From NCBI RefSeq assembly GCF_016809835.1, contig NZ_JAFBIL020000006.1, positions 1 to 64,000 on the forward strand: a DNA stretch of 64,000 nucleotides, read 5' to 3'. Numbering within the stretch: the first letter of the stretch is position 1; every line of letters starts with the position of its first letter. Positions 3,005-19,220 of this stretch are shown in pieces. The notes beneath the pieces were generated by a model that did no database searches, was not told the origin of the DNA, and saw only the letters and a program-made list of their open reading frames with translations. The DNA comes from Massilia soli. Its GTDB lineage: Bacteria > Pseudomonadota > Gammaproteobacteria > Burkholderiales > Burkholderiaceae_D. Made by a program: the position numbers and the translations under genes.

Positions 3005-3060
3005 TTTATGGCCTTCCAAGACGTTACGGTTTAGCCAGGCGGCCTCACTACACGGCCGTC

Positions 3061-4750: not shown

Positions 4751-5515
4751 TTAAGGGTTGTACGATGCCGGGCGCTCCTCTGAGACGGGGTCACCACTCC
4801 TAAAAACTCGCCTATCAAATACTTGCGCTCGCAGTCCGGTCCAGCCAGCGGGACGCGATAAGCACTTCCGGTTTCTTAATGTGCTGAGCATATCCGGGTA
4901 CGAATACCATGTAAGCTGATACTCCAAGGTTAGGTCATCCGGAAGCTCGCCCTTCGGCAAGATTTTGTACAACCTCTGGGCCTCGGAACATGCTTGATTG
5001 ATGCGGGCGAATGTGTCTTTCAGTTTGTCTGTTGGAGCCCTCCCGTCAAGTTCGGCCGGGCTGTCGCCCGCGTCAGTACGCTCTTCAATTTCATGCAAGG
5101 CGCCAACCAGCATTGCGCGCATTTCCCTTGCTAGATAAGGTCCCGAATCAGAGAGAGAAACCATGGACTTGAGCTCTTTCTTGGCGTCCATGATGTCCAT
5201 CTCTTGCGTCCGCGTGCGAGCAGGACCAGCCAGCTCCGACAACCGCTGTTTGACGTGTGCCAATTGCTTGTCGTCGAGCCCGCGCGTTACTAGAACCGTG
5301 AGTTCTTCCACACTTAAGACTGCCTTTCCGGATTCGACGCGCAGCAGCACAGTGTTATTTGTTCGCCCAAAGGCCTTGCCATCAGGCCCCTTGCAGGTTT
5401 TGTAGACGGCTCGGATTACCTCGACTTTCGCAGGCCGCTTTCCAGGCAGGATACGTTGGTATACGACGATGCTTCCGCTCGTCGCATTCAAATTTTCAGT
5501 TGTTGTGTTGTTCAT
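4751..5515 (-). CDS. Hypothetical protein, 254 residues
   Basis: The frame is open from a GTG at 5689, but the first protein-like sequence starts at the ATG at 5515 (MNNTTTEN). The product has a beta-rich N-terminus (about residues 10-70, GSIVVYQRILPGKRPAKVEV) and a helical, charged remainder. I see no catalytic motif, cysteine cluster, signal peptide or membrane segment. I do not recognise the family. It lies 135 bp upstream of the EF-hand gene on the same strand, so it could belong to the same transcription unit, though the gap is long enough for a separate promoter. Confidence 0.55.
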   Translation of the reverse strand: MNNTTTENLNATSGSIVVYQRILPGKRPAKVEVIRAVYKTCKGPDGKAFGRTNNTVLLRVESGKAVLSVEELTVLVTRGLDDKQLAHVKQRLSELAGPARTRTQEMDIMDAKKELKSMVSLSDSGPYLAREMRAMLVGALHEIEERTDAGDSPAELDGRAPTDKLKDTFARINQACSEAQRLYKILPKGELPDDLTLEYQLTWYSYPDMLSTLRNRKCLSRPAGWTGLRAQVFDRRVFRSGDPVSEERPASYNP

Positions 5516-5841
5516 GTCGAGTATTCGTAGTCTTGTTGACGGGATTGTCCACAATGTGTAGCAACCGTCGAGTCGTCTTCGGCGAACCTTCGCGCTTCCG
5601 CCACCCTCAACACTTGTCCGAGGCGTCGAAGACCCGCGGACTATTGACCGGGTAGTCGACGCCACGATGTCTAGCACTGGGAAGTTCACGGTGAAGAACT
5701 CGGGCTAACCGCAGAATCTACTCGTCTTGCCATGAACGAGAAGCTAGGTAGGCACCGATGAGAAATTGTATTCAACTGCCATTGCGGCACAATTTTCTTG
5801 CGTAGCTATACCAATCAGGCCATTCTTGAAAGGACACCCGT

Positions 5842-6057
5842 ATGACCGCTAGAACCCTGATGCAACAGTGCACAGACGAGCTACTCGACTTGATGCGCTT
5901 ACTTGGAAAGATGCACGATGCTGTTCAACGTGGAGAGCCAGTGCCATTGCTGACAGCGGAGCAGACACAGACGCTCATCCTGACCGTTGGTGATGCAATG
6001 ATGACCAACCACCGCGCCTTACGTTCAAAACAAAACGCCGGCCATGTGGCCGCTTGA
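5842..6057 (+). CDS. Small hypothetical protein, 71 residues
   Basis: A helical, charged protein with no recognised domain. The ATG follows a GAAAGGA ribosome site about 7 bp upstream. A strong hairpin terminator lies directly after the stop, which supports a real short transcript. The sequence ends in a basic tail and has no cysteines or membrane segment. It resembles the small accessory genes of phage satellites and plasmids in size and setting only. Confidence 0.6.
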   Translation: MTARTLMQQCTDELLDLMRLLGKMHDAVQRGEPVPLLTAEQTQTLILTVGDAMMTNHRALRSKQNAGHVAA

Positions 6058-6068
6058 TTCGTGATTGC

Positions 6069-6102
6069 AAAGCCCTGGCCAAAACTTGGTCGGGGCTTTT
6101 CT
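6069..6102 (+). terminator. Rho-independent terminator after the 71-residue gene
   Basis: AAAGCCC-TGGCC pairs with a TTGGTC-GGGGCTTT arm around a short loop, followed by TTTTCTT. It begins 12 bp after the stop at 6057. Confidence 0.7.
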
Positions 6103-6143
6103 TGCGGGCACACCCAAAATCGGAAAAATAGGCAAAGGACGAA

Positions 6144-6317
6144 ATGCAGAAATTCGACAGTGAAAAGTTTCGGGCGGCACCAGAGGCCATCGCGACCGAA
6201 AAGTCCAAGCGACGCAAAGGGGCCGCGGCCCGGCCTCGCGTCGCCCAGAAGACCGAAACGCCCACGCCATCAGCCGACGTCGAAGTGCCTTTGGAAAGGC
6301 GACGGATTGATAGCTGA
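6144..6317 (+). CDS. Small basic hypothetical protein, 57 residues
   Basis: An ATG preceded by AAAGGACGA opens a 57-codon frame (MQKFDSEKFRAAPEAIA...), ending RRRIDS. It is rich in Lys, Arg, Pro and Ala and probably disordered, with a basic cluster (KSKRRKG) suggesting nucleic-acid contact. It ends just before the terminator at 6322-6341. It has no homologue I recognise. Confidence rests on the ribosome site, the natural amino-acid makeup and the fit between flanking terminators. Confidence 0.45.
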   Translation: MQKFDSEKFRAAPEAIATEKSKRRKGAAARPRVAQKTETPTPSADVEVPLERRRIDS

Positions 6318-6321
6318 ATTC

Positions 6322-6341
6322 AAAAGGGGGCTTGCGCCCCC
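6322..6341 (-). terminator. Terminator for the wHTH gene
   Basis: GGGGGC-ttgc-GCCCCC is a perfect 6-bp stem. Read on the minus strand it is followed by TTTTG, placing it downstream of the gene that ends at 6369. It may act weakly in both directions. Confidence 0.55.
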
Positions 6342-6368
6342 TAACTTTCCTGCACTTCCCGTTACACG

Positions 6369-7022
6369 CTACGCTACGACGCCTGGAGGCAATAGAGCTA
6401 CGATTTCCGCCGCCATAGCTGGTGAAGCCTTTGCGCGAGCTGAAATGAAGCGGTCCAGTCGAGGTGCATTGGTTGTCGCAATCAGAAATGGCAAAGCTTG
6501 GCCGGACAGCGAAACAACGCGTTTTTGCGCCGCTGCGTTATAACCTTGAATGGTTACCAGCCCGAAAACGGGGATGCCGTCGGAATCGACTAGCACCGCA
6601 TCATAGGCCTTCAGTCGCCCAAGTTCGCGGTAGTCCTTTCCTATACCGCGGGAACCGACGGGCTCAAGCATCATCTGGCCTGCCAAGTAACCGAGCAGAG
6701 CAATGAGCGGCCGGCGTGCATGCAAGTCGTTCATGGAGAGGTCATAGCCGTGTGCAAACCAGAGTGCCATGTGGTGGTCGCTCAGCACGTCGGCGCCGGC
6801 CCTAGTCAAGACATATGCGTTCGTCTGGCCATCGAATGGTAGCGCGCGTGCCAGCACCAATCCAGCAGTCTTCAGCCGTATGACGGCCCGCTGGGCGAGC
6901 TTCAAGCCGGCCTCGGCGGAGTAATTCGGATAGGCCAGGATGGCGAGTTCGCGGGTCGTCAAGTAGCCGAAATTGTTGACTAGCGTTAGTTGGCCGACCT
7001 GGTTAACGGTGATGTTTTTCAT
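6369..7022 (-). CDS. Winged-helix protein resembling Replic_Relax family
   Basis: Encodes 217 residues. The first 85 (LTTRELAILAYP, AQRAVIRLKTAGLVLARAL, NAYVLTRAGADVL) read as a winged helix with a recognition helix and beta wing, as in the replication-relaxation family on plasmids and integrative elements. The C-terminal 110 residues include LGRLKAYDAVLVDSDG and PVFGLVTIQGY, which recall the restriction-endonuclease-like core often fused to that domain, but no complete catalytic set is visible. Such proteins usually act at replication or transfer origins. The upstream 0.5 kb contains a perfect palindrome at 7243-7260, a possible binding site by inference only. Confidence 0.55.
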   Translation of the reverse strand: MKNITVNQVGQLTLVNNFGYLTTRELAILAYPNYSAEAGLKLAQRAVIRLKTAGLVLARALPFDGQTNAYVLTRAGADVLSDHHMALWFAHGYDLSMNDLHARRPLIALLGYLAGQMMLEPVGSRGIGKDYRELGRLKAYDAVLVDSDGIPVFGLVTIQGYNAAAQKRVVSLSGQALPFLIATTNAPRLDRFISARAKASPAMAAEIVALLPPGVVA

Positions 7023-7557
7023 GGGGTTCCCCTGTTAGCTGCACGATATCGTGCCTCTGTGTGTAGCTACCCCTTCGCCGTGCCCGCACTTTCATAGGGA
7101 AACGGCCGGTCAGGCCGTCGGAAGGCCACGCCGCGAGACAACAAGGGGTACGACAGCCGACAGTCGGCGCCGCCGCCTTCCCCTTGCATAAGCCCCCCGA
7201 GCCGCATTACCCTCCCTTCCCTTGTTTTCAGTCCGTCCGATGCCTTGCACCGGTGCAAGGCGCAGTCCGCAGGCCCCGTATTTTCGGCCACACGTGGCCC
7301 TGCACTTTCGCCAACACTCCGGAGTTCAGCACTCGCGCAAACACCCCTTGTTCTCAATGCTCTTGGACTGCCGTCCTGCGGGGCGCAGTCTGGTGTTGCG
7401 CTTCTTGCACCGGCGCTCAAGGGCAGCACTTCAAAAGAAGTTATTTTCAATGCCCTTGTCTAGCGCATCCGGCCGGCAGCGGCTCATATTTTTTACTTCT
7501 TACGCCGCGCAAAGCCGCGGTTGGGTGTACGCTGAACGGCATGACGAGGCGCCGACA
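7023..7557. other. Non-coding stretch with palindrome
   Basis: Open frames here are proline/arginine/cysteine-biased and lack ribosome sites, so I see no gene. The stretch separates two divergent genes and so must hold both promoters. It contains an 18-bp palindrome at 7243-7260. Confidence 0.5.
7243..7260. repeat. Perfect 18-bp palindrome
   Basis: CCTTGCACCGGTGCAAGG is fully self-complementary. A near copy, CTTGCGCCGGCGCAAG (16 bp), lies at 8856-8871. The two share the CTTGC-G-CC/GG core, suggesting a dimeric protein binding site used twice. Confidence 0.7.
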
Positions 7558-7986
7558 ATGAAATGTAGACAATGCAAAAGCGGTGTGCTCGGCGAAGCGG
7601 CATATGTGCGCGAGTTCTACCCTGGCCGACTGCGCGTCGCGGTAGTACTTCTGCAATCGGTTTGTGATAGCTGCGGTCACACTCGCACGCTATCAGCACA
7701 GCACGACGAAAACCTGCGACGGCTGGCGGCACGAAAATCGGCATATGGCGATGTGCTGATGGGCGAGGACTACATCGCCTTGCGCAAGCGCCATAGCTTG
7801 ACCCGCCCGCAGATGGCAAGGGTTCTGGGCGTGAGCATTCGGACCTACACACGATACGAGAACGAGGACGCTTACCCCGTCAAGTCGACGCGTCTGCTCA
7901 TCGAACTTGCGATTGGCAAGCCCGAAGTGCTGCACTTTCTGGCGGACAAAGCAGACTTAGCCCTGGGTCTGAGGGAAGAGTGTTAG
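7558..7986 (+). CDS. MqsA-like antitoxin / zinc-ribbon HTH regulator
   Basis: Encodes 142 residues from the ATG at 7558. The N-terminus has C3-x2-C6 and C36-x2-C39, a zinc ribbon as in MqsA antitoxins. The C-terminus (about residues 70-125: LRKRHSLTRPQMARVLG, then VSIRTYTRYENEDAYP) is a Cro/C1-type helix-turn-helix with the conserved R-Y-E-N turn. MqsA family antitoxins neutralise an MqsR-type mRNA interferase and repress their own operon. No toxin frame lies next to it, so it is an orphan, either a stand-alone regulator or the survivor of a lost module. It may bind the nearby palindromes, which is inference. Confidence 0.8.
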   Translation: MKCRQCKSGVLGEAAYVREFYPGRLRVAVVLLQSVCDSCGHTRTLSAQHDENLRRLAARKSAYGDVLMGEDYIALRKRHSLTRPQMARVLGVSIRTYTRYENEDAYPVKSTRLLIELAIGKPEVLHFLADKADLALGLREEC

Positions 7987-8278
7987 CCCCCTTGTCTACA
8001 ATGCAGGCCTCCTCGCCACCTCCGGGCCGCAGTGATGGCGCCTTCTGGATTCACAGTTGCCCTCCCTTCTGACGTCCACTCGTCGCCGCGCGCCGAGACA
8101 ACTCGACACGCTCCGAATCAGAACTGGTAAGGAAGCGCCCGACTACTCGTCGCGCGCCGCAACACTGCTCGCGCCGACAGCACCCAGCCCCGTATCGCTG
8201 GCCGCGTACGTGGCAGCCGCTCCAACCGCCGCACTCGCCCAACCCCCTTTGTTTCCAACCCGTTTTTCCTGAATATCC

Positions 8279-8620
8279 TGCGGGCCACGGCTTGGTGCTG
8301 CGCCTCCTGAGGGCTGCGGTTTAGCGCTGCGCCTCCTCCGGGCCACGGTTTGGTGCTGCGCCTCCTGCGGGCCACGCGCTGGTTCTGCATATCGGCGGAA
8401 CTCCCTATTGCTTTCAAAATGGGGCGTGCTGACGACCTCGCGGGCAGTAGTGTGGTGGTGCTGATTATCGCGAGGACTTCTGGACTCCTGCATGTCGGGA
8501 GGACTCCTGGGGTCCTGCACTTCGGAGGAGCTTGTGTGGTCTCGCACATTGGGGAGACTACGGCTTTGTGCGGAGTATCGGGAGAGCTACGGTTTAGTGC
8601 GGAATATCGGAGGGACTAAA
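8279..8620. repeat. Degenerate tandem repeat array, about 29-bp unit
   Basis: Four head-to-tail 29-bp units begin at 8279, 8308, 8337 and 8366. Units 1-3 share GGGC-GCGG-TT-G-GCTGCGCCTCC at high identity. After a less regular spacer, about five more diverged units of 27-29 bp run from about 8467 to 8620, sharing CGGGAG-ACT and TGCGGA-TA elements. The unit is not a multiple of three, so it is not selected as a protein repeat. The decay from regular to diverged copies suggests an old array. It is not a CRISPR because there are no unique spacers. Confidence 0.65.
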
Positions 8621-8855
8621 GCATTGACATCAAAGGGTGGTGCCGTGCCGGCCGAAGGCCGGGGGCTTGGAGTGCTTCGCATCGCTACCGCCCGCTCGAG
8701 GCTCATGTTGACAATGGGTCGTGCTGCGCAATGCGCAAAGCCTCGAGGAACGTTGCGCTTTGAGTGCCCCGGAGGTGCCGGAGTTCGGCGGGGTTGGGTT
8801 GGATGTCCGAGCGAAGCGAGGGTGGTTCTGGTGACCGGGGCAGTGGTGCACTCAT

Positions 8856-8871
8856 CTTGCGCCGGCGCAAG
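8856..8871. repeat. Perfect 16-bp palindrome
   Basis: CTTGCGCCGGCGCAAG is self-complementary and differs from the core of the 7243-7260 palindrome by one symmetric base change. It lies on the other side of the MqsA-like gene. Confidence 0.65.
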
Positions 8872-9064
8872 GCAAGCGTTTGGCGGCCCGATTGTTCCAA
8901 TCGCACCGCTGTTAAATCCTCTCGCCGCTTCGCGACGCATGATTCAAACATCAGACCGACAAAAACTACCGGGCTATTTTCAGGGTTTTAGGCCCCGAAT
9001 ATTTTGAGGTCTTACCCGTTACACGCTGCGCGGTCGGCGTCGCGTCAAACTTTCATTCGGACGA

Positions 9065-9138
9065 TTTCTTTTTTTAATGTGGGGAACATCCTTCCTCCAC
9101 AGCTTTCAACTTCGAATGTTTCTTTTTTTAACGTGGGG
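9065..9138 (+). repeat. Two direct copies of a T-tract/GTGGGG element
   Basis: TTTCTTTTTTTAAYGTGGGG occurs at 9065-9084 and 9119-9138, 54 bp apart. Each copy is followed within about 15 bp by CCACA or GCCAC that can pair with its GTGG, giving two weak hairpins. The pattern could be an RNA element or a protein-binding direct repeat. The T-tract precedes the stem, so it is not a plus-strand terminator. Confidence 0.55.
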
Positions 9139-9421
9139 CCACCCTACCGCCACATTCAGTCTGAAGCGTACACAGTGATGCAACCAGCTGTCAAGCAATG
9201 AGGATGTGACCTTGGCCGGCAATGATTTTTTGGGCACTGTCTAAGCGGCTCGAAAACTATTAGCTCCCGCGTAGCCGATGCCTATACGGTACGAGGACAG
9301 AGAAGGCTGCAAATCATGAACGTTGGCTAGGCAGACTAAAGCGTCGTTCGCGCGGCGTTTCAGCCTGTCTAGCTAACGGGACCCGAGGCAGTCGCCGAGG
9401 GTGAAACTTCATGGAGTCTTT

Positions 9422-9838
9422 ATGTGCACAACTATCACGAATATGGTGCTGACCGCTCTCGCGCTGGTCGTCGTGCGAGCGGAGACGTATGCATTGCTGG
9501 AAGCCGTCGCTTACGCACGCAAACTGAACGGTTCGCTGGTGCGAAAACTGCAAATTGGCAGTGCACGCTACGAGTGGGCGAGTATCATTTGGCATGAGAG
9601 GTCAGTTGAAAAGCCGGCATACAGCATCATGCGGCCGCTGGCACTCTTCATCGCGACAGTGTTTGGTGCCGTCGCAGCGATGGATTTCGCCGGCTTGCCG
9701 GGCAACAGTCCGTTGGTGATGTTGATGGGGCTGGCCGTCAGTGGCGGCTACTTCGCAAAAGCTTACGGCGCATCGTTCGTAGCACATCGCCAGTCCGTAG
9801 CTGAATGCCAAAGACAAGGCACTTGGCATCTCGCTTGA
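9422..9838 (+). CDS. Small membrane protein, 138 residues
   Basis: The ATG at 9422 has GGAG 6 bp upstream. A GTG at 9401 is the longer alternative. The protein has a hydrophobic N-terminal segment (about residues 6-20), a charged soluble part, then two probable membrane helices near residues 72-88 and 94-112 (PLALFIATVFGAVAAMDFAG, LVMLMGLAVSGGYFA). The family is not recognised. A strong terminator follows 22 bp after the stop. Its size and topology would fit a phage-type or toxin-type inner-membrane protein, but there is no motif to decide. Confidence 0.55.
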   Translation: MCTTITNMVLTALALVVVRAETYALLEAVAYARKLNGSLVRKLQIGSARYEWASIIWHERSVEKPAYSIMRPLALFIATVFGAVAAMDFAGLPGNSPLVMLMGLAVSGGYFAKAYGASFVAHRQSVAECQRQGTWHLA

Positions 9839-9850
9839 TTCAGCACTACT

Positions 9851-10021
9851 TCATTCACAACGCCCCTCGCGGGGCGTTTTCATTTGGCCGGCTTGCGGCT
9901 CACGAAGCGCCTCAAGTTGCGCGATATCGGCTTCGGTGACAAGGCCATATTCTCTGAGGTCAGTGGCAGTCTCGAGCAATTCGAGAAGCACCCTATTTTC
10001 GGTGTTTGGTGATTCTGACAT
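9851..10021 (-). CDS. Truncated HTH antitoxin-like protein, 56 residues
   Basis: The ATG at 10021 gives a 56-residue product. Its middle, VLLELLETATDLREYGLVTEADIAQLEAL, matches in pattern the N-terminal arm of NadS/HigA-type antitoxins (LETMRDLHxxGLxxxxxLxxFDAL), but the Cro/C1 helix-turn-helix that should follow is missing. It starts 5 bp after the 47-residue gene, so the two are probably co-transcribed. It may be a remnant or a short regulator. The plus-strand terminator overlaps its last codons. Confidence 0.45.
   Translation of the reverse strand: MSESPNTENRVLLELLETATDLREYGLVTEADIAQLEALREPQAGQMKTPREGRCE
9860..9880 (+). terminator. Rho-independent terminator after the membrane protein gene
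   Basis: ACGCCCC-TCGC-GGGGCGT is a perfect 7-bp stem with TTTTC following. It sits inside the 3' end of the opposing minus-strand small gene. Confidence 0.75.
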
Positions 10022-10026
10022 GGCAA

Positions 10027-10170
10027 TTACTCGCTGAGGCCACGACGGCGCAGCAGTTCTTGAAAATCGGACTCGGTTGGAGCGCAATACTTGATGCCAG
10101 ACTCAACACCGGTCGGGACGACATATGCCAGGAAAACGCCGAGGGCGAGACAGAGGACTATGGTCAGCAT
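10027..10170 (-). CDS. Small membrane-anchored protein, 47 residues
   Basis: The minus-strand frame starts at the ATG ending at 10170 behind an AGGAG ribosome site. It begins MLTIVLCLALGVFLAYVV, a clear membrane helix or uncleaved signal, followed by a short polar tail ending RRRGLSE. The strong ribosome site, hydrophobic leader and tight spacing to the next gene argue it is real. The family is not recognised. It could be a small inner-membrane regulator, a type I-like toxin or a phage-derived peptide. Confidence 0.55.
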   Translation of the reverse strand: MLTIVLCLALGVFLAYVVPTGVESGIKYCAPTESDFQELLRRRGLSE

Positions 10171-10234
10171 GTAATTCTCCTGGGGTTAGTGCCACGATAG
10201 CACCGGTACCTGGCAAAGAGTGAAGCGCTGGAGT

Positions 10235-10372
10235 TTATCTCGCCCCTGCTGTTGGTATTAAGCGAAACAACGCGTTTTTATCGGATGCTGCATTGAACTC
10301 CGCAGCTATTTGCCAGTGCGACATCCACAAGTATTCCATACGTACTGGTTCTCGCAAGGCCATCGCCCTCAT
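10235..10372 (-). CDS. Small hypothetical protein, 45 residues
   Basis: The frame from the ATG at 10372 reads MRAMALREPVRMEYLWMSHW and continues QIAAEFNAASDKNALF. It looks like a natural amphipathic, aromatic-rich peptide, not a shadow frame. A second ATG lies at 10363. The ribosome site is weak. A 19-bp stretch at 10261-10279 is identical to DNA inside the wHTH gene at 6508-6526, in a different frame. The family is not recognised, and the call rests on amino-acid composition only. Confidence 0.35.
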   Translation of the reverse strand: MRAMALREPVRMEYLWMSHWQIAAEFNAASDKNALFRLIPTAGAR

Positions 10373-10719
10373 TCGAGTAACACCTGGTCGATTGAGTGCT
10401 GTCGAGTGTCAACAAGGGGATGAGTCCTTGGCACTCGCGTCAACCGTACACCAACCGCTACAGCGGAACGTCTGTAGTGCCGGTGCGATTTCCTCGACCT
10501 TGGCGACCAGAGGTTAGCTCGCATCAAAGGTATTTTGGGTGTGGCGGGACGCTGAAAAAGGTCGAGCAGCGCGCCCCTCAACGTCCGGAGGCTAGATTGA
10601 TATTGGCCACCAACGCATGACTAGGCATTCATACTATTTTCGTCTTTATCCTGAAAAGCAGGGTAATTTGGATGCCGCCGTCTCTACACCTTTCACCATC
10701 AACAAGAAAGGTGTAGTCC
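10373..10719. other. Intergenic region between divergent small genes
   Basis: No convincing gene. It must hold the promoter for the plus-strand gene at 10720 and probably that of the minus-strand small genes. An AAGAAAGGTG ribosome site sits at its right edge. Confidence 0.4.
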
Positions 10720-11004
10720 ATGAATACCATCACACTCTCCCCCTACCTCCGGCTCTCCGGTGCAGGCTTTGATATTGACCTGAAAAGTCGCGGCAACAAA
10801 TTCCGCCTCATCCTCAAGCGTGGCGACGAACTGGTCGCCACCGGCTTCGCCTCCCGCGGGCACAGTATGAAAAACGCCGACGCCCTACGTCGCATTCAAC
10901 TGAATCAGTTCGGCGAAACCACGGACGTTTTCTCTTTGGTCAGCCGCCTTGCTGACATCGCAGAATCGCTGTCTCCTGCACGGGCAACAAATGCAGCGAG
11001 ATAA
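10720..11004 (+). CDS. Small hypothetical protein upstream of the helicase
   Basis: Encodes 94 residues and starts at an ATG behind AAGAAAGGTG. The predicted fold is beta-rich at the start (YLRLSGAGFDIDLKSRGNKFRLILKRGDE) and helical later. No catalytic motif, cysteine or membrane segment is visible. Its stop lies next to or inside the start of the helicase gene, depending on which start is used, so it is in the same operon. By analogy with P4-type satellites it could regulate replication or copy number, but the sequence does not show this. Confidence 0.6.
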   Translation: MNTITLSPYLRLSGAGFDIDLKSRGNKFRLILKRGDELVATGFASRGHSMKNADALRRIQLNQFGETTDVFSLVSRLADIAESLSPARATNAAR

Positions 11005-12883
11005 AATGAACCTCGAACATTTAAGAGCTGCGGTTAAGGTCAGCGACCCACTTGACCGGACGGCACTGGCACCTCGCGCTGGTCCGGCGTTGAAGGGCAG
11101 AATCGAGGCGACGCCAGCACCTGCAAACAGCGCAGTCCCAGGACGGATGGTCCCCGACCAAAAAACCGCCGTCTCGTTGGAGGAGAAACAGGCCCTTCGC
11201 AAGGACCTGATGGCCATCATTTCGACCTGCACCGATGCAGACGTACTCACAAGCATGCTGATTCCGAAGCTGGACCTGGCAACTTGTGCCGATGACCACA
11301 GGCCGCTGCGCGCTGCCATCAAGGCTGCCGTGCAGGCCAAGCTAAAGAAGTTGACTGGCGCCAAACCAACCGCTGCCGACATGAGGGATTTGTTCCCAGA
11401 GGTAGCAAAGAAGTTGAAACCAAAGGCTCGTCACGTGAGTCTGACTCACTTCGGCGTTGCTGAACGCGTGCAGGCGGACATGGCAGGCGACCTCCGTTAC
11501 AACATCGACCAGCAGAAATGGCTCAACTGGGACGGATGCCGTTGGGTGAACCTGCGCAATGCACAGGTCCAGACCATCGCTCGAAAAACGGTCAACAAGA
11601 TTAAGACCTATGTCGCGACCTTTTCGGATGTGGACATGGAGAAGCTCGAGCACGCGGATAGCGACGCGTTCCGCCGCGGTGTGGTCGGAGAAATGGTCGC
11701 ACTGGAGCGAATGCACGTCGAACAGCTGGACCTCGACCAACACGCCGGCTTTCTGGCATGCGGCAACGGCGCCATCAACCTGGCGACTGGAGACCTGGTG
11801 TACGAGCGCGACCTGCTGGTGACCGTCCGGAACGACACTGACTTTGACCCAGATGCCAAGGCGCCGCTCTTCATGAGGATTCTAGGCGAGATGTTCGAGC
11901 AGCGTGAGGAGGACATCAATTACTACGAGCTCATAATGGGCTACAGCATCCAGGCCAATCCCAGCGAACGTGCCATGTTCTTTCATAAGGGTGAGGGTAC
12001 CAACGGTAAGTCGCTAATGCTTGGCGCCATCATGAAGGCCCTCGGCGACTATGCGGTAACCACCAACTACAAGCTCATCGCCGATGGGCCGGGCAGCACT
12101 ATGAATGGAAGTGCTGATGGCCCTTCTCCGTCGCAACGCCGCTTGATGGCAAAGCGCATTGCGTACATCGACGAAATTCCTGTCGGGGGCAATCTACGGG
12201 ACGCTGACGTGAAGCGCTTCGCAGGCGGTGCCGGCACCTTGGACGCGCGCGGACTCGGGCAGGAGACGGTGGAATTCCTAATCACTTTCGTGTTCCACAT
12301 AGCATGTAACACTATGGCGACGGTTCGCAATGGACAGCCTGCCACGTTCAAGCGCGCATTCCCGGTTGTTTACACCAAGCAGTTCGACGCGGTAGAGGAC
12401 AGCACGTTGGCTGAGAAGCTGGACGTGGAACGCGCGGGCATTCTGGCGTGGCTGGTGTGCTGCTCACTCAAGTACCAGGCGATGCGGGCCCGAGGCGAGA
12501 AGCTTCGCGACCATATGCCGCAGTCGGCAAAGGATGCACTGGAGAGCATCAAGTCAGAACAGAACCCCTTCACTGCCTGGCTGGAAGAAAACTGCGAACG
12601 AGGTGAGGGCTATGTGATGCCGGTACGGGCGGCATGGGATGACTATATGCAGCACGAGGAACGGGTCAACAAAGACGCATCCAAGGTGGCGGCCCGAAGC
12701 GTAAGGAAATTCACGCAGTTGATGAAGGCGTTCAATATTGGCCGACACGACGAACAAGTCATGTTTGGCAAGCGACGTGCGGCCGGCTTCTGGGGTTGGC
12801 GCCTGCGCACTGATGTGGTGAGCGACCTGCAGGTTTCTGCTGCGGCCGCCAAAGCACCGGTCCGAGCACACAAGATAACTTGA
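10991..12883 (+). CDS. P4/D5-family phage or plasmid replication helicase
   Basis: Encodes 630 residues from the ATG at 10991; a second ATG at 11006 is also plausible. The N-terminal 150 residues are not recognised. The middle (DLRYNIDQQKWLNWDG, then CGNGAINLATGDLV) fits the D5_N region. GEGTNGKS near residues 334-341 is the Walker A loop, RLMAKRIAYIDEI near 385-396 is Walker B, and LITFVFHIACN fits sensor/motif C of superfamily 3 helicases. Such proteins open replication origins of P4-like satellites and phage-plasmids. No Toprim or catalytic primase domain is evident, so primase activity is uncertain. An iteron cluster lies just downstream at 12948-13275. Confidence 0.9.
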   Translation: MQRDKMNLEHLRAAVKVSDPLDRTALAPRAGPALKGRIEATPAPANSAVPGRMVPDQKTAVSLEEKQALRKDLMAIISTCTDADVLTSMLIPKLDLATCADDHRPLRAAIKAAVQAKLKKLTGAKPTAADMRDLFPEVAKKLKPKARHVSLTHFGVAERVQADMAGDLRYNIDQQKWLNWDGCRWVNLRNAQVQTIARKTVNKIKTYVATFSDVDMEKLEHADSDAFRRGVVGEMVALERMHVEQLDLDQHAGFLACGNGAINLATGDLVYERDLLVTVRNDTDFDPDAKAPLFMRILGEMFEQREEDINYYELIMGYSIQANPSERAMFFHKGEGTNGKSLMLGAIMKALGDYAVTTNYKLIADGPGSTMNGSADGPSPSQRRLMAKRIAYIDEIPVGGNLRDADVKRFAGGAGTLDARGLGQETVEFLITFVFHIACNTMATVRNGQPATFKRAFPVVYTKQFDAVEDSTLAEKLDVERAGILAWLVCCSLKYQAMRARGEKLRDHMPQSAKDALESIKSEQNPFTAWLEENCERGEGYVMPVRAAWDDYMQHEERVNKDASKVAARSVRKFTQLMKAFNIGRHDEQVMFGKRRAAGFWGWRLRTDVVSDLQVSAAAAKAPVRAHKIT

Positions 12884-12910
12884 ATCTGAATCGAGGAACT
12901 CCCCCATCGA

Positions 12911-12937
12911 AGGCCGCCGCAAGGGCGGCTTTCCTAC
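12911..12937 (+). terminator. Terminator after the helicase gene
   Basis: GCCGCC-gcaag-GGCGGC followed by TTTCCT lies 28 bp after the helicase stop. Confidence 0.6.
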
Positions 12938-12947
12938 GTCCGAACCC

Positions 12948-13275
12948 TACAGACTTCGGAGGCGCAATGCCTGTAAGAAGTCTGTAGGATGTCTGTAGTG
13001 TACGTCATCCTGCCGGCCAAGTTGGTGACCAGGTCCTTGGAAGCCCTTTCCCTTACAGACTTCTACAGACTTTATACAGGCTTTGAATTTCAAAGGAAGC
13101 CCGCCAATACAGGGTTTTACAGACTTACAGACTTTACAGACTTATTTCGAAGTCCTTGTGATGAGAGAAAAATTGAATACTCTTGGATTGCTCATAGAAC
13201 AGGCAGAACGGAGACGGATATATTTTAATTTTCCCGATATGAAAGCGGGCGCGTAGGAAGTCTGTAATGTCTGTA
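12948..13275. repeat. Iteron cluster, candidate replication origin
   Basis: The 9-mer TACAGACTT occurs exactly at 12948, 13054, 13064, 13118, 13126 and 13135. Its reverse complement AAGTCTGTA occurs exactly at 12978 and 13258. One- or two-mismatch copies lie at 12989, 13075, 13108 and 13267. Three copies at 13118-13143 are almost contiguous. The right half is AT-rich (about 13160-13240) compared with the flanks, as expected of an unwinding element. Direct and inverted iterons next to a D5/P4-type helicase gene are the usual layout of a self-encoded replication origin. The initiator assignment is inferred from proximity. Confidence 0.7.
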
Positions 13276-13395
13276 GGAGCGCTTCGCCAACTTGGTCAGC
13301 CAGGATTCCCGCCTTGGTGCTCTCGAAGTCCAAGTGTGGCGAGTGCAGACGAGTGAAGCCCTGCGGATGGCGCTTGCGCGCCGCAGGCATACGGC

Positions 13396-13502
13396 TGGCC
13401 AAGGGAGCGCTGTGCGCTCCTGCCCCCTCTGAAATCGGCGGGAGTATTTAGGACTACTTCAAATCGGTGTCGGTCCAGAGAGCCACAGGCTCTCCTTGGC
13501 CA
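13396..13502. repeat. Paired hairpins in inverted orientation
   Basis: TGGCCAAGG at 13396-13404 and its complement CCTTGGCCA at 13494-13502 each border a short hairpin: GGAGCGC-tgt-GCGCTCC at 13404-13420 and GAGAGCC-aca-GGCTCTC at 13478-13494. The block could fold as nested hairpins. It may be part of the origin region or a divergent terminator pair. Confidence 0.5.
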
Positions 13503-13526
13503 GCCGGGCCGCGCGCCGGTTGGCGC

Positions 13527-13682
13527 TCAACGCCAGTCACCATCGCCGCGCTGCTGCAGCACCGCAACCGGCTTACTGTCCTTCCCTAGTTCGTCGGAGC
13601 CACAACCGCGGCATTGGATGAGCAAAAACCCCACAACGACAGGTAAAAAAGTTCTTTTCCCGACAGTGGGCCATGCTCGCAA
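13527..13682 (-). CDS. Possible short lipoprotein or membrane peptide
   Basis: A minus-strand frame of 51 codons from a TTG at 13682 contains RTFLPVVVGFLLIQC, a hydrophobic stretch ending in a lipobox-like LIQC, then a polar tail. There is no ATG and no clear ribosome site, so this is a weak call. Size and pattern recall small phage or plasmid lipoproteins. Confidence 0.25.
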   Translation of the reverse strand: MRAWPTVGKRTFLPVVVGFLLIQCRGCGSDELGKDSKPVAVLQQRGDGDWR

Positions 13683-13785
13683 ATAGACGAGTATGCCTCG
13701 CTCCACCTCCAGTTCGAACGGCGGCGGGCGCCAAGCCAACGCTGGAGCGCTTCGGCGCGCCGTTGTCGGCGAGCGGGCAGCGAAA

Positions 13786-14268
13786 TCATATGGAGGAGGA
13801 AAATTCCTTGGCATCGTCCAGAAAGAATCGGAGCTGCTTGACGTGTGCTTTGGCCCCTCTACGCATTGCGCGACGGGGCGCAGAGCAGGGCATGTTGGCG
13901 GGATGGTTTTCGTCGAGGTGGCGGTCATAGTCTCGCTCGCCAGTGTAGTTGGCTTCGAGCTCTAAAGTTTGAACCACTACATGGCCATCGGCGATGCGAG
14001 ACGCCGCCCAAAGGAGGTCTCGGGGAGAAATGTCACTGGACAGTACGAACATGGCGTCGACATCACCAAACTCGCTCGGCGCAATTTTCCTATAGGATGC
14101 GGCAAATTCGCTTATCGCAGCAAAGAAAAGTTGGGCGTCTCTCAGGCACTCAGCACGAAATTTGTACTGTGCTCCGGTTACGCCGCCGCCAGCTGTGGAC
14201 GCAAGAAACGTGGACATCGCCTTCATCTCCGCCTGGATTTGCATCGAGACGTGGTTTGAGTAATTCAT
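13786..14268 (-). CDS. Hypothetical protein, 160 residues
   Basis: The ATG at 14268 follows an AAAGG ribosome site. The product is mostly helical with a charged C-terminus. No cysteine cluster, membrane segment or catalytic motif stands out. It is monocistronic, with 428 bp of non-coding DNA upstream. I do not recognise the family. Confidence 0.55.
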   Translation of the reverse strand: MNYSNHVSMQIQAEMKAMSTFLASTAGGGVTGAQYKFRAECLRDAQLFFAAISEFAASYRKIAPSEFGDVDAMFVLSSDISPRDLLWAASRIADGHVVVQTLELEANYTGERDYDRHLDENHPANMPCSAPRRAMRRGAKAHVKQLRFFLDDAKEFSSSI

Positions 14269-14696
14269 GGTCAGATACCTTTCGAATTGGTTAGCTCTTG
14301 CCGAGACGGCCCAAGCTATCAGTTAAATTTCCACAAGTTTTCTTTTCAGGGCGACAAGTGCAGTTGCAAAATTGAAGCCCATCCACGGAGTAGCCACCGC
14401 ATTTTAAATTCCACGGTTTTTATGGCAACGGCAAGGTCTGCCAGCACGGGCATGAGCCGCTGCAAATGGGCAATCATGAACATCGACCGGTGGCGTCACC
14501 TGGATGCGGGCTCGGGATATACTGGTACCAAGACCTGAGCGGTTAGCCGCTGAAAACCCAAAGAACCGTCGGCTCAGAAAGCACGCGTTTTTTGCAGACA
14601 AAAGTGTGTCAAATTGGGGAGCGCCCCCTCGCGTTCAGAACGGAGACGACTATGCGGTCAGAAGACGAAATGAAGCGCGCGGAGGAGGAGGACTAG
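14269..14696. other. Intergenic region with possible leader peptide
   Basis: No gene of normal size is supported. At its right edge a 14-codon frame (14652-14696, MRSEDEMKRAEEED) ends exactly where the next gene begins and contains that gene's GGAGGAGGA ribosome site, so it could be a translated leader. Confidence 0.35.
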
Positions 14697-15161
14697 ATGG
14701 TCCCGGCTGTGCTGGCGGAGGCTCGCAATCGTCCGGACCGCCCGATGTCCACGCCGGAATCAATCGCTGCTGGACACGCGGCGATGGCGGAGGGAAGAGC
14801 GAGAGCTGCTGAGACGCTGGCGCGCCGGATTGAATGCAAGGAGCTGTTGTCGGCAGTCGAGCTGCGGAGCGCGTTGGGCGTAGTGCAGCAGGCAATTGAT
14901 GAAGCAGTCGCGTCGAACCGGTTGTTTGCATTTGAAGGCCCTGGCCGAGAGCCCTATTACCCGGCGTTTTATGCCGATGCCACTGTGGCCAGGTCAGCCC
15001 TTGAACTGGTAGCGCAGGAACTGCTCGACCTGCCGGCGCCGTCGAAATACCACTTCTTCCTCAGCATGCGCACGAATCTCGGCACGACTCCGCTGGAGGC
15101 GCTCAAGTGCGGGCGGGTTGATGAAGTTTTGCAAGCGGCGGCTGGTTTCATGAATACCTAA
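14697..15161 (+). CDS. Hypothetical protein, possible DNA-binding accessory protein
   Basis: Encodes 154 residues. The ATG at 14697 has an excellent GGAGGAGGA ribosome site. A second ATG at 14745 is also seen. The N-terminal half is helical (ECKELLSAVELRSALGVVQQ). The C-terminal part (PSKYHFFLSMRTNLG, then TPLEALKCGRVDEVLQAA) recalls the tail of short antitoxin-like or MbcA/ParS-type proteins in which a helical pair ends with an L-x-A-L-x-x-G-x-x-x-x-V motif. I recall related accessory-region proteins but no assigned function. It stands alone and its stop overlaps a doubtful minus-strand frame. Confidence 0.55.
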   Translation: MVPAVLAEARNRPDRPMSTPESIAAGHAAMAEGRARAAETLARRIECKELLSAVELRSALGVVQQAIDEAVASNRLFAFEGPGREPYYPAFYADATVARSALELVAQELLDLPAPSKYHFFLSMRTNLGTTPLEALKCGRVDEVLQAAAGFMNT

Positions 15162-15378
15162 CTAGGGCTGGACGATATCCGGAAAATCGTGGGCCGAGTT
15201 CGGCCAGGAGCTGCCAGGCGACGAAGTCGTAGCTAATTTGATTTTTCACCATTGGGAGGAAGTAATGGTCGCGGAGACTACCGCGGCCATACTTGACTAC
15301 CACTCCGAGGTCCGCGAGAACGTGCGAAGTGTCTGGCCACAGTGAGCCCAACAAAGACATCCTGCGACTAAGACACAT
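15148..15378 (-). CDS. Doubtful small protein, 76 residues
   Basis: The product ends in a plausible helical segment (ISYDFVAWQLLAELG) but has no recognised motif. It follows the small membrane protein gene on the same strand by 6 bp, which would fit an operon, and overlaps the convergent plus-strand gene by 14 bp. Ribosome-site support is weak. Confidence 0.3.
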   Translation of the reverse strand: MCLSRRMSLLGSLWPDTSHVLADLGVVVKYGRGSLRDHYFLPMVKNQISYDFVAWQLLAELGPRFSGYRPALVRYS

Positions 15379-15384
15379 CGGTTC

Positions 15385-15504
15385 CTAGTGCTGAGTGCGT
15401 CTTCTGAGGAGCCTGCCGTAAACCTGGGCCGCGGCGAGGGTCACGGCGCCCGCCAGGAATGCAATGGCGTGCGATTTGAGAAATTCCATCGGGCCAGGAA
15501 ACAT
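15385..15504 (-). CDS. Small single-pass membrane protein, 39 residues
   Basis: The ATG at 15504 sits 1 bp after the YaaW-like stop, with AAAGGAG inside the end of that gene. The product is MFPGPMEFLKSHAIAFLAGA plus a further VTLAAAQVYG and a basic tail (RLLRRRTQH), so one membrane helix with a positive C-terminus. Tight spacing to the YaaW/zinc-ribbon gene suggests a partner role in the same membrane-linked module. Confidence 0.55.
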   Translation of the reverse strand: MFPGPMEFLKSHAIAFLAGAVTLAAAQVYGRLLRRRTQH

Positions 15505-15505
15505 T

Positions 15506-16390
15506 TCATTCTCCTTTAACGGCTTCGCCACATTCGCTACAGAAACGCGCGGTACGTTCATTCCGAGCGCCACACACAGAACATGCTTTGCTGTTCGCTT
15601 CAACTATGGCCTTCTGTCGCATATAAGCGATTTGCACCACGCACGGCACTGTAACTCTGTAGGCAGGACTCGCCATATCAGCAAGCGTCCAAACACCAGT
15701 AACGACCAAGCCGATTGGACCGAGCACTACTCCGATAGTCCTTGCCGCCGCCGCGTTCACGACCAAGGGTAGTCCTCGCCCAAGCAAAGCTTTCGAGACC
15801 GCGTTCGCGACGACAAGAGCAAGCTTGTAAGTGGCAAATCCACCGGCCCGCCCAGCCGCAATTAACGCAGCGCTAGTCGCCGGCCCCAACATTCCTAGGT
15901 CAGCGACATTCAGCTCTTTCAGCACGGTAGCTCGCTCACTAGGTGACATCTTCTCGAACGATTCGCGCAGAATCTTGCGCAGGATGCCGTCTTCGACAAT
16001 TATCACGTCGTCCTTCTTGTCGAAGGGGACCTTAAGATGGGATGCCACGTCCTTAACCACCTCGTCATAGGAAATCGCTCCATCAACGTCGGGAAGTACC
16101 TTGTTCAATAGCGAGTCGAAAGGGATACTGCTGCGGACATCACGGTAAACGTTTGTCAGCGTGTTGCCGCCGAAGGCGCAAATCTCTCGCCCAATGCGTA
16201 TGCGGTCTTCGCCTGTGTAAACCTTTCGCTCCTTAGATTTTACAAGCCTAGCGCAGACATCGTTGTTCAACGAAATCCGCCCCCCACCATTGTCGGTAAT
16301 GTAGTCGACGAGGATGTCCAAGTCGGTGACGTCTGCTTGCGCGAGCAGCAGCGAGAGGTTGCCGGGGTGTTTGATGAATTCTTCGCTCAT
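15506..16390 (-). CDS. YaaW-family (UPF0174) protein with C-terminal zinc ribbon
   Basis: Encodes 294 residues. Residues about 20-110 (CAFGGNTLTNVYRD) and 210-255 (SPAYRVTVPCVVQIAYMR) match the layout I recall of E. coli YaaW, including the FGG and the AYRVT-P-V-QIA-LR signature, with a hydrophobic alanine-rich centre (about 165-235) that could insert in membrane. Unlike E. coli YaaW it ends in a four-cysteine zinc ribbon (C270, C273, C284, C287). YaaW function is unknown. The start overlaps the XRE regulator stop by 4 bp, and a small membrane protein follows, so this is a three-gene operon, probably autoregulated. Confidence 0.75.
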   Translation of the reverse strand: MSEEFIKHPGNLSLLLAQADVTDLDILVDYITDNGGGRISLNNDVCARLVKSKERKVYTGEDRIRIGREICAFGGNTLTNVYRDVRSSIPFDSLLNKVLPDVDGAISYDEVVKDVASHLKVPFDKKDDVIIVEDGILRKILRESFEKMSPSERATVLKELNVADLGMLGPATSAALIAAGRAGGFATYKLALVVANAVSKALLGRGLPLVVNAAAARTIGVVLGPIGLVVTGVWTLADMASPAYRVTVPCVVQIAYMRQKAIVEANSKACSVCGARNERTARFCSECGEAVKGE

Positions 16391-17010
16391 TGGTTTGCCT
16401 TTGCGGTAGTGGTTCCAAGAATGCTGCAGATGGTCAGAAGCGCAGGTAAATGCGACGTAGCGACACCATCCAGCCGAAATGGAATTGCTGCGGCCGTCGT
16501 TGCGATAGACACTCTCGATGCGCGTCGAAAGTCGCGGAGTTCTTGTGAGACCCGGGGGTCATTCGAATCCTCAACGGTCTTTAAAAGTTTCCCAACACGC
16601 AACGCCGCTTCTGCGACACGCGGCGAGGTCGTCGAATCAAGTGACTGGAGCTCCGTCGCGAGCTCCTTGAATTTTGGGTCCGACATCGCTTGGAAGAAGG
16701 TCAGAACGCCGCTCCCAAGACTGGCCCAGTCCTGCGGACGCATCAACAAGATAGCAGGAGGAACTCCCACTGCCTCTGCCAGTTGGCAGATTATTTTTAG
16801 GTCGGGGTTCGTGCCCTCTGAATTGCTTCCAAGGTATTTATTCAACGTTGTCCTTCCCATGTTGGCACGCTCGGCCAGGTCAGTCTGCGACAGCGCGTCG
16901 GGGGCACCATCTTCGTCCTCCCCTGCTACCCTCATGCTCCGGCGAACGGCTTCCACGAAACATCGCGAGACGTTGCTGAATAGTGGGACCTCTTCGGTTT
17001 CTGTAGTCAC
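16387..17010 (-). CDS. XRE-family transcriptional regulator
   Basis: Encodes 207 residues. Residues about 38-85 (ALSQTDLAERANMGRTTLNKY, split by a turn, then DLKIICQLAEAVGVPPAILL) form a Cro/C1 helix-turn-helix. The remaining helical part may be a dimerisation or sensor domain; a hydrophobic C-terminal segment (LPALLTICSILGTTTA) is also present. It heads the operon with the YaaW-like gene and faces a divergent membrane coiled-coil gene, so it likely controls both from the 300-bp region between them. Confidence 0.8.
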   Translation of the reverse strand: MTTETEEVPLFSNVSRCFVEAVRRSMRVAGEDEDGAPDALSQTDLAERANMGRTTLNKYLGSNSEGTNPDLKIICQLAEAVGVPPAILLMRPQDWASLGSGVLTFFQAMSDPKFKELATELQSLDSTTSPRVAEAALRVGKLLKTVEDSNDPRVSQELRDFRRASRVSIATTAAAIPFRLDGVATSHLPALLTICSILGTTTAKANQ

Positions 17011-17310
17011 TCAATTCTCCCTATTGATGGATAGCATTCTATGATGTGGATTGCTACCGTTCAATCAAACTTGTCTGCGACGATGAACACACGTCGATTG
17101 CACGCATTTAGGTGATGTGTTACCGCGCGAGCGCAAAAGGTGTGGCAAGGGCCGCGTTTGTCTACGCAGCTAGACAAGTAATCTGTAACGCATTGCATTG
17201 GAGCACTCAGCCATGGCACAGTCCATCAGTCGCCCGAAAACGAGCGGCTGAAGCTGGCGACTGAATAGTTGTTGAGCCTCCTTAGACAGAAGCTAATTTG
17301 AGGAAATGAC
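17011..17310. promoter_or_regulatory. Divergent promoter region
   Basis: A 300-bp AT-richer region between the XRE operon and the divergent 433-residue gene. TAGCA...TGCTA half-sites around 17030-17056 form a loose inverted repeat close to the regulator start and are a candidate operator. A TTGAGGAAATG ribosome site serves the plus-strand gene. Confidence 0.4.
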
Positions 17311-18612
17311 ATGAGCATGCAATATTTTGTTTGGCTAGGAGTCGCTTTGGTTGTTGCCATCGGCGGCGTGATGATTCTCCAGCGCCGCAAATCGGATAAC
17401 GCGTCCCATGTGCCGGACATGCAGTCTCTGAAGTGCAGTCCCATTAGTGAAGTCGCTCAAACTTCCGTCGTCAAACCCTTCGAGACCAAGCAATCGCTGC
17501 CACATGCCATCGTCTTAGGTGAGAACGCCCAACGACCCGGTATCCGTATCGCGCCACTATCGGATGGGGAGCGTTATCGAGCTGCAAAAACGCTGCCTAC
17601 GGAATCCGGATTGGGAACGCGATTGAGTGCTGGGCTTCAGGCTGTGCCCGCATTATTGGTAGAAGAAGGACATCGCGGCAAACACCTGATGGAGGTCGTC
17701 ATCAACGGAGAGTTGGTCCGAGCGAAGGATGGCGAGAGTCTTCGCGCCTTCTCAGTCGGTGCCGATAACAAAATCTCGGAACATGCCAAGCTCTTCGAAA
17801 CTAACAACTTGCAGAATGTGGTTAACGCTGCCGCGGTTTGGCAAATCGCCTCAGTAGTCGTAGCACAGAAGCACTTGGCCGACATTTCCGCAAAACTGGA
17901 CAGCATACGGGAGAGTGTTCAAGTCGTCGTTGCCTTCCTTGACGAAGAACGGCGGGCAAAGGTCACGGGGACCTTTAAGTACCTTGAACGAGCAATTCGA
18001 GCAATTGCCAAGGGAGAGTTGTCGCCTGCGATGAGAATCGAACTCGAGAGTTGTGAACGCGAGCTGTTACAGATTCAGGACCATCTTCAGAATGAATTCA
18101 AGCGCCATTTCGAACAAACCATCGAACACAAGGAATTTGCGGGAACCGGGGACTTGGAAAAGAAGGTGGTTAACAAGTACGAGAAACTCAGAGTCCTTGC
18201 CATGGACCTGCGCCTGACGCTAAAGACAAGGGCACTGGCTTGGCACGTGGCATCGCTCTTCCCAGGTGAACCGGGCCTCAAACAGGTGAGGATGGAAGAG
18301 TTACTACGCGATGCCGATGAAATCGAAGGCTGGATTGATTCCATCGACGTTAGTGCTAAGCACGATTCCACGCGATTCAATTCTTTTTGGAATAAAGAGG
18401 AAACGCTGAATATCCGCAGAACGAATATACGTGAAGCAGCGCAGGCCCTGGCGACGGACTTGCGCGATGTCACCTCGCAAGCAAAGGCCGAAGTAAGTGT
18501 CGCGCACGCATCTCTATTGACGCATGACGAGCCGATTTACCTCGTCTTCGAGGTTGAGAACGGCCATATTGGCGAATTCCGCGTGGCTGAACCGATAGCT
18601 CGGACGGCTTGA
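17311..18612 (+). CDS. Membrane-anchored coiled-coil protein of unknown function
   Basis: Encodes 433 residues. A single N-terminal membrane helix (FVWLGVALVVAIGGVMIL, residues about 6-23) is followed by a linker, then a conserved-looking core around residues 115-185 (HLMEVVINGELVRAKDG; NLQNVVNAAAVWQIASVVVA). Long heptad-like helices follow (residues about 185-395), including AQKHLADISAKLDSIRESV, so it should form an extended coiled coil in the cytoplasm. It starts with ATG behind GAGGAA. The family is not named, though the pattern is natural. Its divergent position to the XRE/YaaW-like operon suggests one regulated envelope-linked module. Confidence 0.65.
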   Translation: MSMQYFVWLGVALVVAIGGVMILQRRKSDNASHVPDMQSLKCSPISEVAQTSVVKPFETKQSLPHAIVLGENAQRPGIRIAPLSDGERYRAAKTLPTESGLGTRLSAGLQAVPALLVEEGHRGKHLMEVVINGELVRAKDGESLRAFSVGADNKISEHAKLFETNNLQNVVNAAAVWQIASVVVAQKHLADISAKLDSIRESVQVVVAFLDEERRAKVTGTFKYLERAIRAIAKGELSPAMRIELESCERELLQIQDHLQNEFKRHFEQTIEHKEFAGTGDLEKKVVNKYEKLRVLAMDLRLTLKTRALAWHVASLFPGEPGLKQVRMEELLRDADEIEGWIDSIDVSAKHDSTRFNSFWNKEETLNIRRTNIREAAQALATDLRDVTSQAKAEVSVAHASLLTHDEPIYLVFEVENGHIGEFRVAEPIARTA

Positions 18613-19091
18613 CGGTTCGAATGCTTCGTGGGCGATGCATTCACATGGGTATGAGAGGGGCGTGATGCATGCCGCCAAGATAATTGCGCTTCGGGTTGAA
18701 AACAAAGAATTTTTGTCGGCATAAGAACCGCGGGAGGAAAAGCGTTCTCTGAAAGGGAAGAGGCGCGACGCGCATCACACCAATACATTTGTCTGGAGCC
18801 GGCCGCTGCTATGTGTGGGAATTCATGGACGTGAGTCGACACTTTCGTGTCACCGTTACCTGGCTCGCAAAGGTCTCGGAAAGTTTGCGCGCAACCGATT
18901 CATGTTCTGCGACCGTTGTTCGACGCGCGTAGTTGATGCCGAATTAGGCGCGCTGAAGTTGCCACCCATGTTGCGCCTAGGCCAACATCGCCGTGTAGAA
19001 TTGGGAGAGTTCGCGCCACGCAGAAATGGGCGGCCAGTCCAAAAAACCAACGCGCCGACTGAACCAAATGAGCTTTTTCGGCCCCTTTTTC

Positions 19092-19136
19092 TGTTACACT
19101 AAGCGCTTCACAAACCCGTGTAACACCAAGGTTTGT
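19092..19136. repeat. Two overlapping inverted repeats
   Basis: TGTTACAC (19092-19099) pairs with GTGTAACA (19118-19125), and ACAAACC (19110-19116) pairs with GGTTTGT (19130-19136). The two stems are mutually exclusive, like an RNA switch or a protein-bound recombination site. Confidence 0.5.
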
Positions 19137-19220
19137 CCCTCTATAGCGGTACCGAATTCGACGTGGCCAGTGGTCCCCCATCAGCCACCCCATTGTTTTA
19201 CATGTGCAGTAACGAAATCG

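Follow-up and report, generated by a model that had tools for sequence, protein, structure and literature searches.

A candidate iteron origin downstream of a D5-type helicase gene in a tRNA-His defence island of Massilia soli

We analysed a window of 64,000 nucleotides of Massilia soli (assembly GCF_016809835.1, contig NZ_JAFBIL020000006.1, positions 1 to 64,000), in which a gene for a D5-type helicase is followed directly by a dense cluster of short repeats. The surrounding mobile element is an integrative island that occupies a tRNA-His gene and carries defence genes, and the region 12884-13300 is very probably its origin of replication, with the upstream helicase as initiator. Comparison with related loci gives good support to the reading of this region as a putative origin for the helicase next to it, and it suggests that the island is able, now or formerly, to copy itself apart from the chromosome. 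A self-encoded origin is the best reading because the plan of the region matches the origin layout published for phage-inducible chromosomal islands (PICIs), as far as the excerpts of that paper describe it (PMC6092414). The parts of the proposed origin are as follows.

11006..12883, + strand: D5-type (superfamily 3, SF3) helicase of 625 aa (ATG start at 11006) with a C-terminal winged-helix-like domain, proposed initiator
12913..12932 (approximate), + strand: GC hairpin and a short run of T residues, recognised by eye, probably the helicase gene's terminator
12948..12997: first iteron group, with copies at 12948 (+), 12978 (-) and 12989 (-, one mismatch) and a two-mismatch copy at 12967 (-)
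13054..13083, + strand: second iteron group, with copies at 13054, 13064 and 13075 (one mismatch)
13118..13143, + strand: triple of abutting exact iterons at 13118, 13126 and 13135, with equivalents in all three relatives
13144..13257, no strand: AT-rich gap between the opposed iteron sets, 59% AT, proposed DNA unwinding element
13258..13275, - strand: abutting inverted iteron pair, 13258 exact and 13267 with one mismatch

Copies of the 9-mer TACAGACTT lie on both strands of 12948-13275, eight of them exact, three with one mismatch and two with two mismatches. An earlier sequence-only reading had counted twelve copies or near copies in both orientations; its coordinates and its account of the cluster are correct. 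That reading had also placed the cluster correctly after the helicase gene and its terminator (stop codon at 12883, hairpin at about 12913-12932 and repeats from 12948 to 13275), and had rightly seen three near-contiguous copies (13118-13143, which abut at spacings of 8 and 9) and an AT-rich stretch beside them. With at most one mismatch allowed, TACAGACTT is matched at 15 places in the 64 kb window, 11 of which fall inside the cluster, against an expectation of 3.36 and a largest value of 10 in 100 dinucleotide shuffles of the window. Genome-wide (4,990,115 bases) the exact 9-mer occurs 11 times, eight of them in the cluster, so it is not common elsewhere. The Poisson probability of eight copies in 328 bp at the outside-cluster rate is ~6e-35, a value that overstates the case because the motif was chosen after the cluster had been seen. 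The clustering is real and far above chance. The gap at 13144-13257 is 59% AT against 38% window-wide, and 1.3% of 114-bp stretches (taken every 5 bp across window positions 1-19176) equal or exceed it. Across the 60.8 kb of island read, which comprises window positions 1-19192 and positions 1-41586 of a second contig (C22), a single TACAGAC heptamer lies outside the cluster, at 10470, and no second repeat cluster was found.

The same arrangement was met at every close relative found. A protein-pattern scan of viral contigs gave two records of ~44 kb (L020 and L021) with helicases 57-58% identical to that of the window, and a family search (392 genomes, 43 with some match) gave one chromosomal homologue at 60% identity (locus L132 of genome G400). 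Among 399 genomes sampled from the order and 369 from the class no additional close homologue was found, and none of the 16 helicase candidates from a protein-pattern search of the genome contig collection was confirmed. In all three relatives a TACAGAC-type cluster with a TACAGA core lies directly 3′ of the helicase gene, which bears out the sequence-only reading at related loci, and all four loci share one plan: stop codon, GC hairpin (with a longer T run in the three relatives), copies in mixed orientation, a forward abutting triple, an AT-rich gap, and two or three inverted copies. The gap measures 114 bp in the window, 113 bp in L021, 111 bp in L132 and 95 bp in L020, with AT contents of 59%, 69%, 67% and 64%, respectively, against 38-43% overall; in L132 and L020, single TCTGTA cores also lie within it.

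When the DNA of the four loci is aligned, the invariant columns cluster in the iterons, and the longest conserved run is the inverted block (window 13258-13275). The triple of L020 is made of TACAGAGAT throughout with the plan unchanged, and its iteron set has therefore changed together. A blind scan for repeated 8-mers ranks the iteron or a variant of it top at all four loci, with counts of 8 (L001, the window), 6 (L132), 7 (L020) and 11 (L021), and 3 or fewer in shuffles. A second motif of the GGCCA type, taken in three spellings, is present near the cluster in 0-4 copies per locus, at a rate above that outside except for TTGGCCA in L021 (0 copies). Scans of whole collections for pairs of TACAGACTT copies separated by 0-2 bases gave 16 stretches from viruses and 94 from genomes, many with titles such as Bacteroidales or Patescibacteria; the two inspected, both betaproteobacterial, have four exact copies (Rhodoferax antarcticus L054) and two (L082). 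L054 has no match to any protein of the window's first 20 kb. A literature search for the bare 9-mer gave nothing related among the matches listed.

The helicase reading frame, listed with a TTG start at 10949 (644 aa), is intact and open. No primase part was recognised in it, Pfam giving D5_N only, and its PHROG alignment begins at profile position 327 of 855. The fold model is interpretable only within residues 67-156 and 540-617, being too poor elsewhere, and among the matches listed in a comparison of this predicted fold, coverage falls mainly on the same residues. We propose that the C-terminal winged-helix domain of the helicase would bind the 9-bp TACAGAC-type iterons, and that the opposed iteron sets would load two hexamers in opposite orientations on either side of the 114-bp AT-rich gap. 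The gap would then melt and host replication proteins would assemble, with priming by the host primase, which we propose because no primase part was recognised in the helicase. Replication of this kind would follow excision of the element, an integrative island in tRNA-His that spans at least 60.8 kb and encodes an integrase, ParA and defence functions. The replication segment of the island probably shares an ancestor with that of two phage contigs.

Kinship with phages is visible well beyond the helicase gene. Contig A (IMGVR_UViG_3300028585_000035) is collinear with the island over ~7 kb, with DNA matches in the same order at 6315-6422, 8616-8714, 8991-9044, 9316-9509 (71% identity), 10088-10279, 10729-10859 and 11175-12677, and at the protein level the block begins at 5830. 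The genes shared with contig A or with contig B (IMGVR_UViG_3300018868_001228) include the following.

6369..7022, - strand: 217-aa gene within the collinear block, in both viral contigs (tblastn 32% and 41%)
9401..9838, + strand: 145-aa gene within the collinear block, in both viral contigs (tblastn ~37% in both)
10720..11004, + strand: 94-aa open reading frame (ORF) directly upstream of the helicase gene, in both viral contigs (tblastn 46% and 37% identity)
14697..15161, + strand: 154-aa gene with a homologue in contig A (tblastn 47%)

Thus, the two viral contigs resemble the island in their helicases, in the origin plan, in ParA, and in relatives of the 94-aa, 145-aa and 217-aa genes and of a HAD_SAK_2 gene. 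Both carry genes for an endolysin, Rz, a terminase, a resolvase or invertase, and ParA, the last inside the collinear block upstream of the helicase gene, whereas the ParA gene of the island lies on its opposite side. Contig B additionally has portal, head, tail sheath and tape measure genes and an integrase gene at its end; these, together with its lysis and terminase genes, give contig B at least the look of a temperate phage with a contractile tail. The island, in contrast to the lysis and large terminase subunit (TerL) genes of both contigs and the virion genes of contig B, has defence genes instead. Apart from the island, G400 is the one close non-viral carrier that was found, and its helicase locus is a defence locus too: it adjoins type I restriction genes and an OLD-like/UvrD pair, with no virion genes among 10 ORFs scanned. 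The G400 gene at the place of the 94-aa ORF has a 29% match to the contig B counterpart, and the 94-aa window gene itself has no direct match in G400, no Pfam match and no credible PDB match. Two repeats were also noted in this part of the island. An exact 19-bp direct repeat, AGCGAAACAACGCGTTTTT, lies at 6508-6526 and 10261-10279, inside the phage-like block; it was not found in the phage contigs or the G400 stretches and is possibly regulatory. A 20-bp repeat, TTTCTTTTTTTAAYGTGGGG, lies at 9065-9084 and 9119-9138, 54 bp apart, and was likewise not found in the phage contigs.

The element extends far beyond the window's replication segment, and the features that define its ends and content are given below.

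19176..19192, no strand: attR core CCCCATCAGCCACCCCA, right end of the island, 17 bp, an exact match to the 3′ terminus of the intact tRNA-His gene on contig C22
C22:39750-41471: tyrosine integrase, open ORF, beside the tRNA gene
C22:37151-37978: ParA ATPase, open ORF
C22:32675-36439 (L187): 1254-aa ORF, matching phrog_18693 over its whole length (7e-258)
15506..16390, - strand: JukA-like defence gene, cargo (PADLOC JukA, 4e-54)

The sequence that follows the attR core is the flank seen at the empty site in genome G003, and the left flank of that site, with the intact tRNA-His gene, lies on another contig of the same genome (C22:41587-41662). The island therefore spans C22 from 41586 down to 1 and probably runs on from position 1 of the window. 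The 17-bp core is exact at each att end, and the two marks of an integrative element in tRNA-His are present, namely an integrase gene beside the intact tRNA gene and, on the far side, a second copy of the 3′ end of that gene in direct orientation. The island is thus at least 60.8 kb long, with its other end on a separate contig. An apparent multi-copy insertion sequence (IS) with the end repeat CTAGGGAAGCGCTGAT has seven matches genome-wide, five of them within 81 bp of contig starts; these ends lie near the starts of contigs C3, C6, C9, C22 and C36, breaking the assembly. The join of C22 to C36, the contig of the window, is likely to run across one IS copy, because both start beside an end of what is seemingly the same multi-copy IS. 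The idea of a replicating or once-replicating element, put forward from the letters of the window, is strengthened by the att repeats, the integrase and the phage-collinear replication segment; its equation of the element with a first region of the window fell short, as that region is the right-hand third of the island.

The cargo is largely defensive. C22:1-20802 (L186, L190) carries genes like those of the cyclic oligonucleotide-based antiphage signalling system (CBASS), with two DncV-like nucleotidyltransferases, ThiF and SAVED, and adjoining them a bacteriophage exclusion (BREX) system with BrxA, BrxB, BrxC, an Eco57I-type methylase in the place of PglX, PglZ and BrxL. The C22 part also holds two HAD_SAK_2 genes and an HNH gene. 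The 1254-aa ORF has no Pfam, PADLOC or PDB match and one partial match among 50,697 phage records. At 15506-18612 the JukA-like gene adjoins a helix-turn-helix (HTH) gene and a 433-aa ORF without Pfam or PADLOC match, and the stretch is a candidate Juk-type locus with an unrecognised partner.

How the element relates to known systems can be judged from both its origin and its size. Gram-negative PICI origins are described, in the excerpts of PMC6092414, as lying immediately 3′ of the initiation gene, with two iteron sets always flanking an AT-rich region, and PICI pri-rep-ori plasmids and deletions thereof were assayed there for maintenance. As far as those excerpts go, our island resembles PICIs and the Staphylococcus aureus pathogenicity islands (SaPIs) in that its putative origin adjoins the 3′ side of the initiator gene, that an AT-rich region lies between two iteron sets (as at all four close loci), and that the element sits in the chromosome with att sites and an integrase gene. 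Virion genes were not seen in the part of the island ORFs that was scanned. PICIs are about one third of a phage genome in size according to the same excerpts, whereas the island reaches at least 60.8 kb, and AlpA (PF05930) has four matches in the genome, none of them in C22:1-41586 or C36:1-19192. Unlike PICIs and SaPIs, the island has ParA and a large defence cargo, and the closest helicases found belong to two phage contigs and one chromosomal defence locus. As a class for the whole element, PICI was rejected on size and on the lack of AlpA in the parts read.

The sequence-only reading had also likened the layout to that of P4-like satellites and phage-plasmids; as a class for the whole element, P4-like satellite did not hold. 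Phage P4 does have a D5-type helicase gene, a terminator and mixed-orientation short repeats in that order, and its alpha protein shows distant similarity to the island helicase in the helicase part (hhalign probability 30%, blastp E 0.02). However, alpha is a fused primase-helicase of 777 aa of which only residues 401-644 align; P4 has a separate ori and crr that share repeats, in contrast to one cluster in the 60.8 kb of island read; and P4 is 11.6 kb long with psu, sid, delta and epsilon, none of which was found among 37 island ORFs scanned with Pfam (a part of all its ORFs). P4-like elements have a median size of about 10 kb in the excerpts of PMC8628076. A P4-like satellite was rejected on size, on the lack of AlpA in the parts read, on the missing primase part and on the single repeat cluster.

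Phage-plasmids are like the island in combining replication and partition genes, which here would be the helicase gene with its iterons, to which we ascribe replication, and ParA. The top named phage among the helicase matches listed is Bordetella phage BPP-1 (Bbp29, 29.8% over 75%), which differs in its longer gene (2565 bases) and in having no iteron set above shuffles by blind scan. The crenarchaeal plasmid pRN1 has, in the excerpts of PMC4234260, an essential origin region directly downstream of the gene for its replication protein, orf904; unlike the island it has a stem-loop there, and its authors did not find iterons according to the same excerpts. No publication was found that joins phage-plasmid, iterons, primase and origin of replication, and none describing this element among the matches listed, seen in part, which is no proof of its being unpublished.

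More distant D5 helicases show how widespread the layout is. In P4 (NC_001609), used as a control, the annotation gives alpha, a terminator and crr with type 1 repeats in both orientations, with a separate ori ~4.5 kb off, and the blind scan recovers GGTGAACA. Applied to 61 distinct distant D5 loci (34 + 29, minus L196 and L204, which repeat L147 and L145), the scan put seven above shuffles by the chosen margin and left 54 not flagged. L194 was dropped with its repeats located inside an ORF, as was L156 with an 8-nt tandem in a possible ORF. The five kept (L133, L004, L006, L008 and L193) have their own, differing iteron-like sets just 3′ of the helicase stop, with the motifs ACGTTCCA, ATCCGCCC, ACCCGACA, CCCGACAC and CCGCCCAA, respectively; at L004, three of the six copies overlap a small ORF. 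The layout of helicase gene, then iterons, is recurrent, not general.

Other explanations of the cluster can be weighed against this background. Perhaps the island is a relic, decayed and permanently integrated, with iterons left over and under no present selection. We consider this a possibility of some weight, though a tentative one: an apparent IS lies within the island, phage structural genes are missing among the ORFs scanned and the TerL of contig B is absent from the genome (in a search without positive control), and few ORFs of 1-9 kb score well in a crude scan of codon use for which the long ORFs of the window served as training set. Against this, the helicase, integrase and ParA ORFs are open, the 17-bp cores are exact at both att ends, and the iterons are arranged no less regularly than those of the viral contigs.

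Operators and centromeres also have clustered inverted short sites, and the repeats might instead be operator or partition (parS-like) sites for a repressor or ParB rather than for the helicase, with no origin present. The HTH regulator and ParA on the island would fit such a role. This is nevertheless less likely, and we would call it improbable, as the cluster stays fixed 3′ of the helicase gene at all four loci while the position of ParA differs between viral contigs and island, the AT-rich gap between opposed sets is kept at all four, and no such repeats stood out in the two stretches adjoining ParA that were examined. A still more improbable alternative is that the cluster is the counterpart of the P4 replication enhancer crr, with the true origin elsewhere on the island; P4 does have crr in this place, as mixed-orientation repeats that directly follow alpha and its terminator, with ori ~4.5 kb off, whereas on the island the window and C22 stretches read gave one cluster, and the AT-rich gap lies within it.

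Descriptions of defence islands usually centre on the cargo, and the means by which such islands move and persist are often obscure. Here, the probable replicon, the att sites, the integrase and the partition gene of a defence island can all be pointed out, and its replication segment leads back to a phage lineage. Thus, an origin served by the neighbouring helicase leads to the prediction that a BREX/CBASS/Juk island excises and copies itself, perhaps upon phage infection, and it offers a searchable signature for similar replicons, namely a helicase gene with opposed 9-mers 3′ of it on either side of an AT-rich gap. What is of further interest is that a phage-type replicon and a large defence island occur in combination. 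It is tempting to speculate, doubtful as we hold the idea to be, that the island belongs to a class of large defence elements, not described so far, which lack a capsid and have retained the complete replicon of a phage lineage (initiator, iteron origin and partition ATPase), with the origin itself part of the defence. If so, an infecting relative could trigger replication of the island, or the island origin could titrate the phage initiator, either of which is conceivable because the iterons are of the phage's own type.

Two minor observations concern the stretch upstream of the helicase gene. The second half of the ORF at 7222-7986 combines a CxxC zinc finger with an HTH and, by eye, resembles an MqsA-type antitoxin, and 8276-8401 holds a degenerate tandem array of TCCTGCGGGCCACGGTTTGGTGCTGCGCC-like units at 29-bp spacing.
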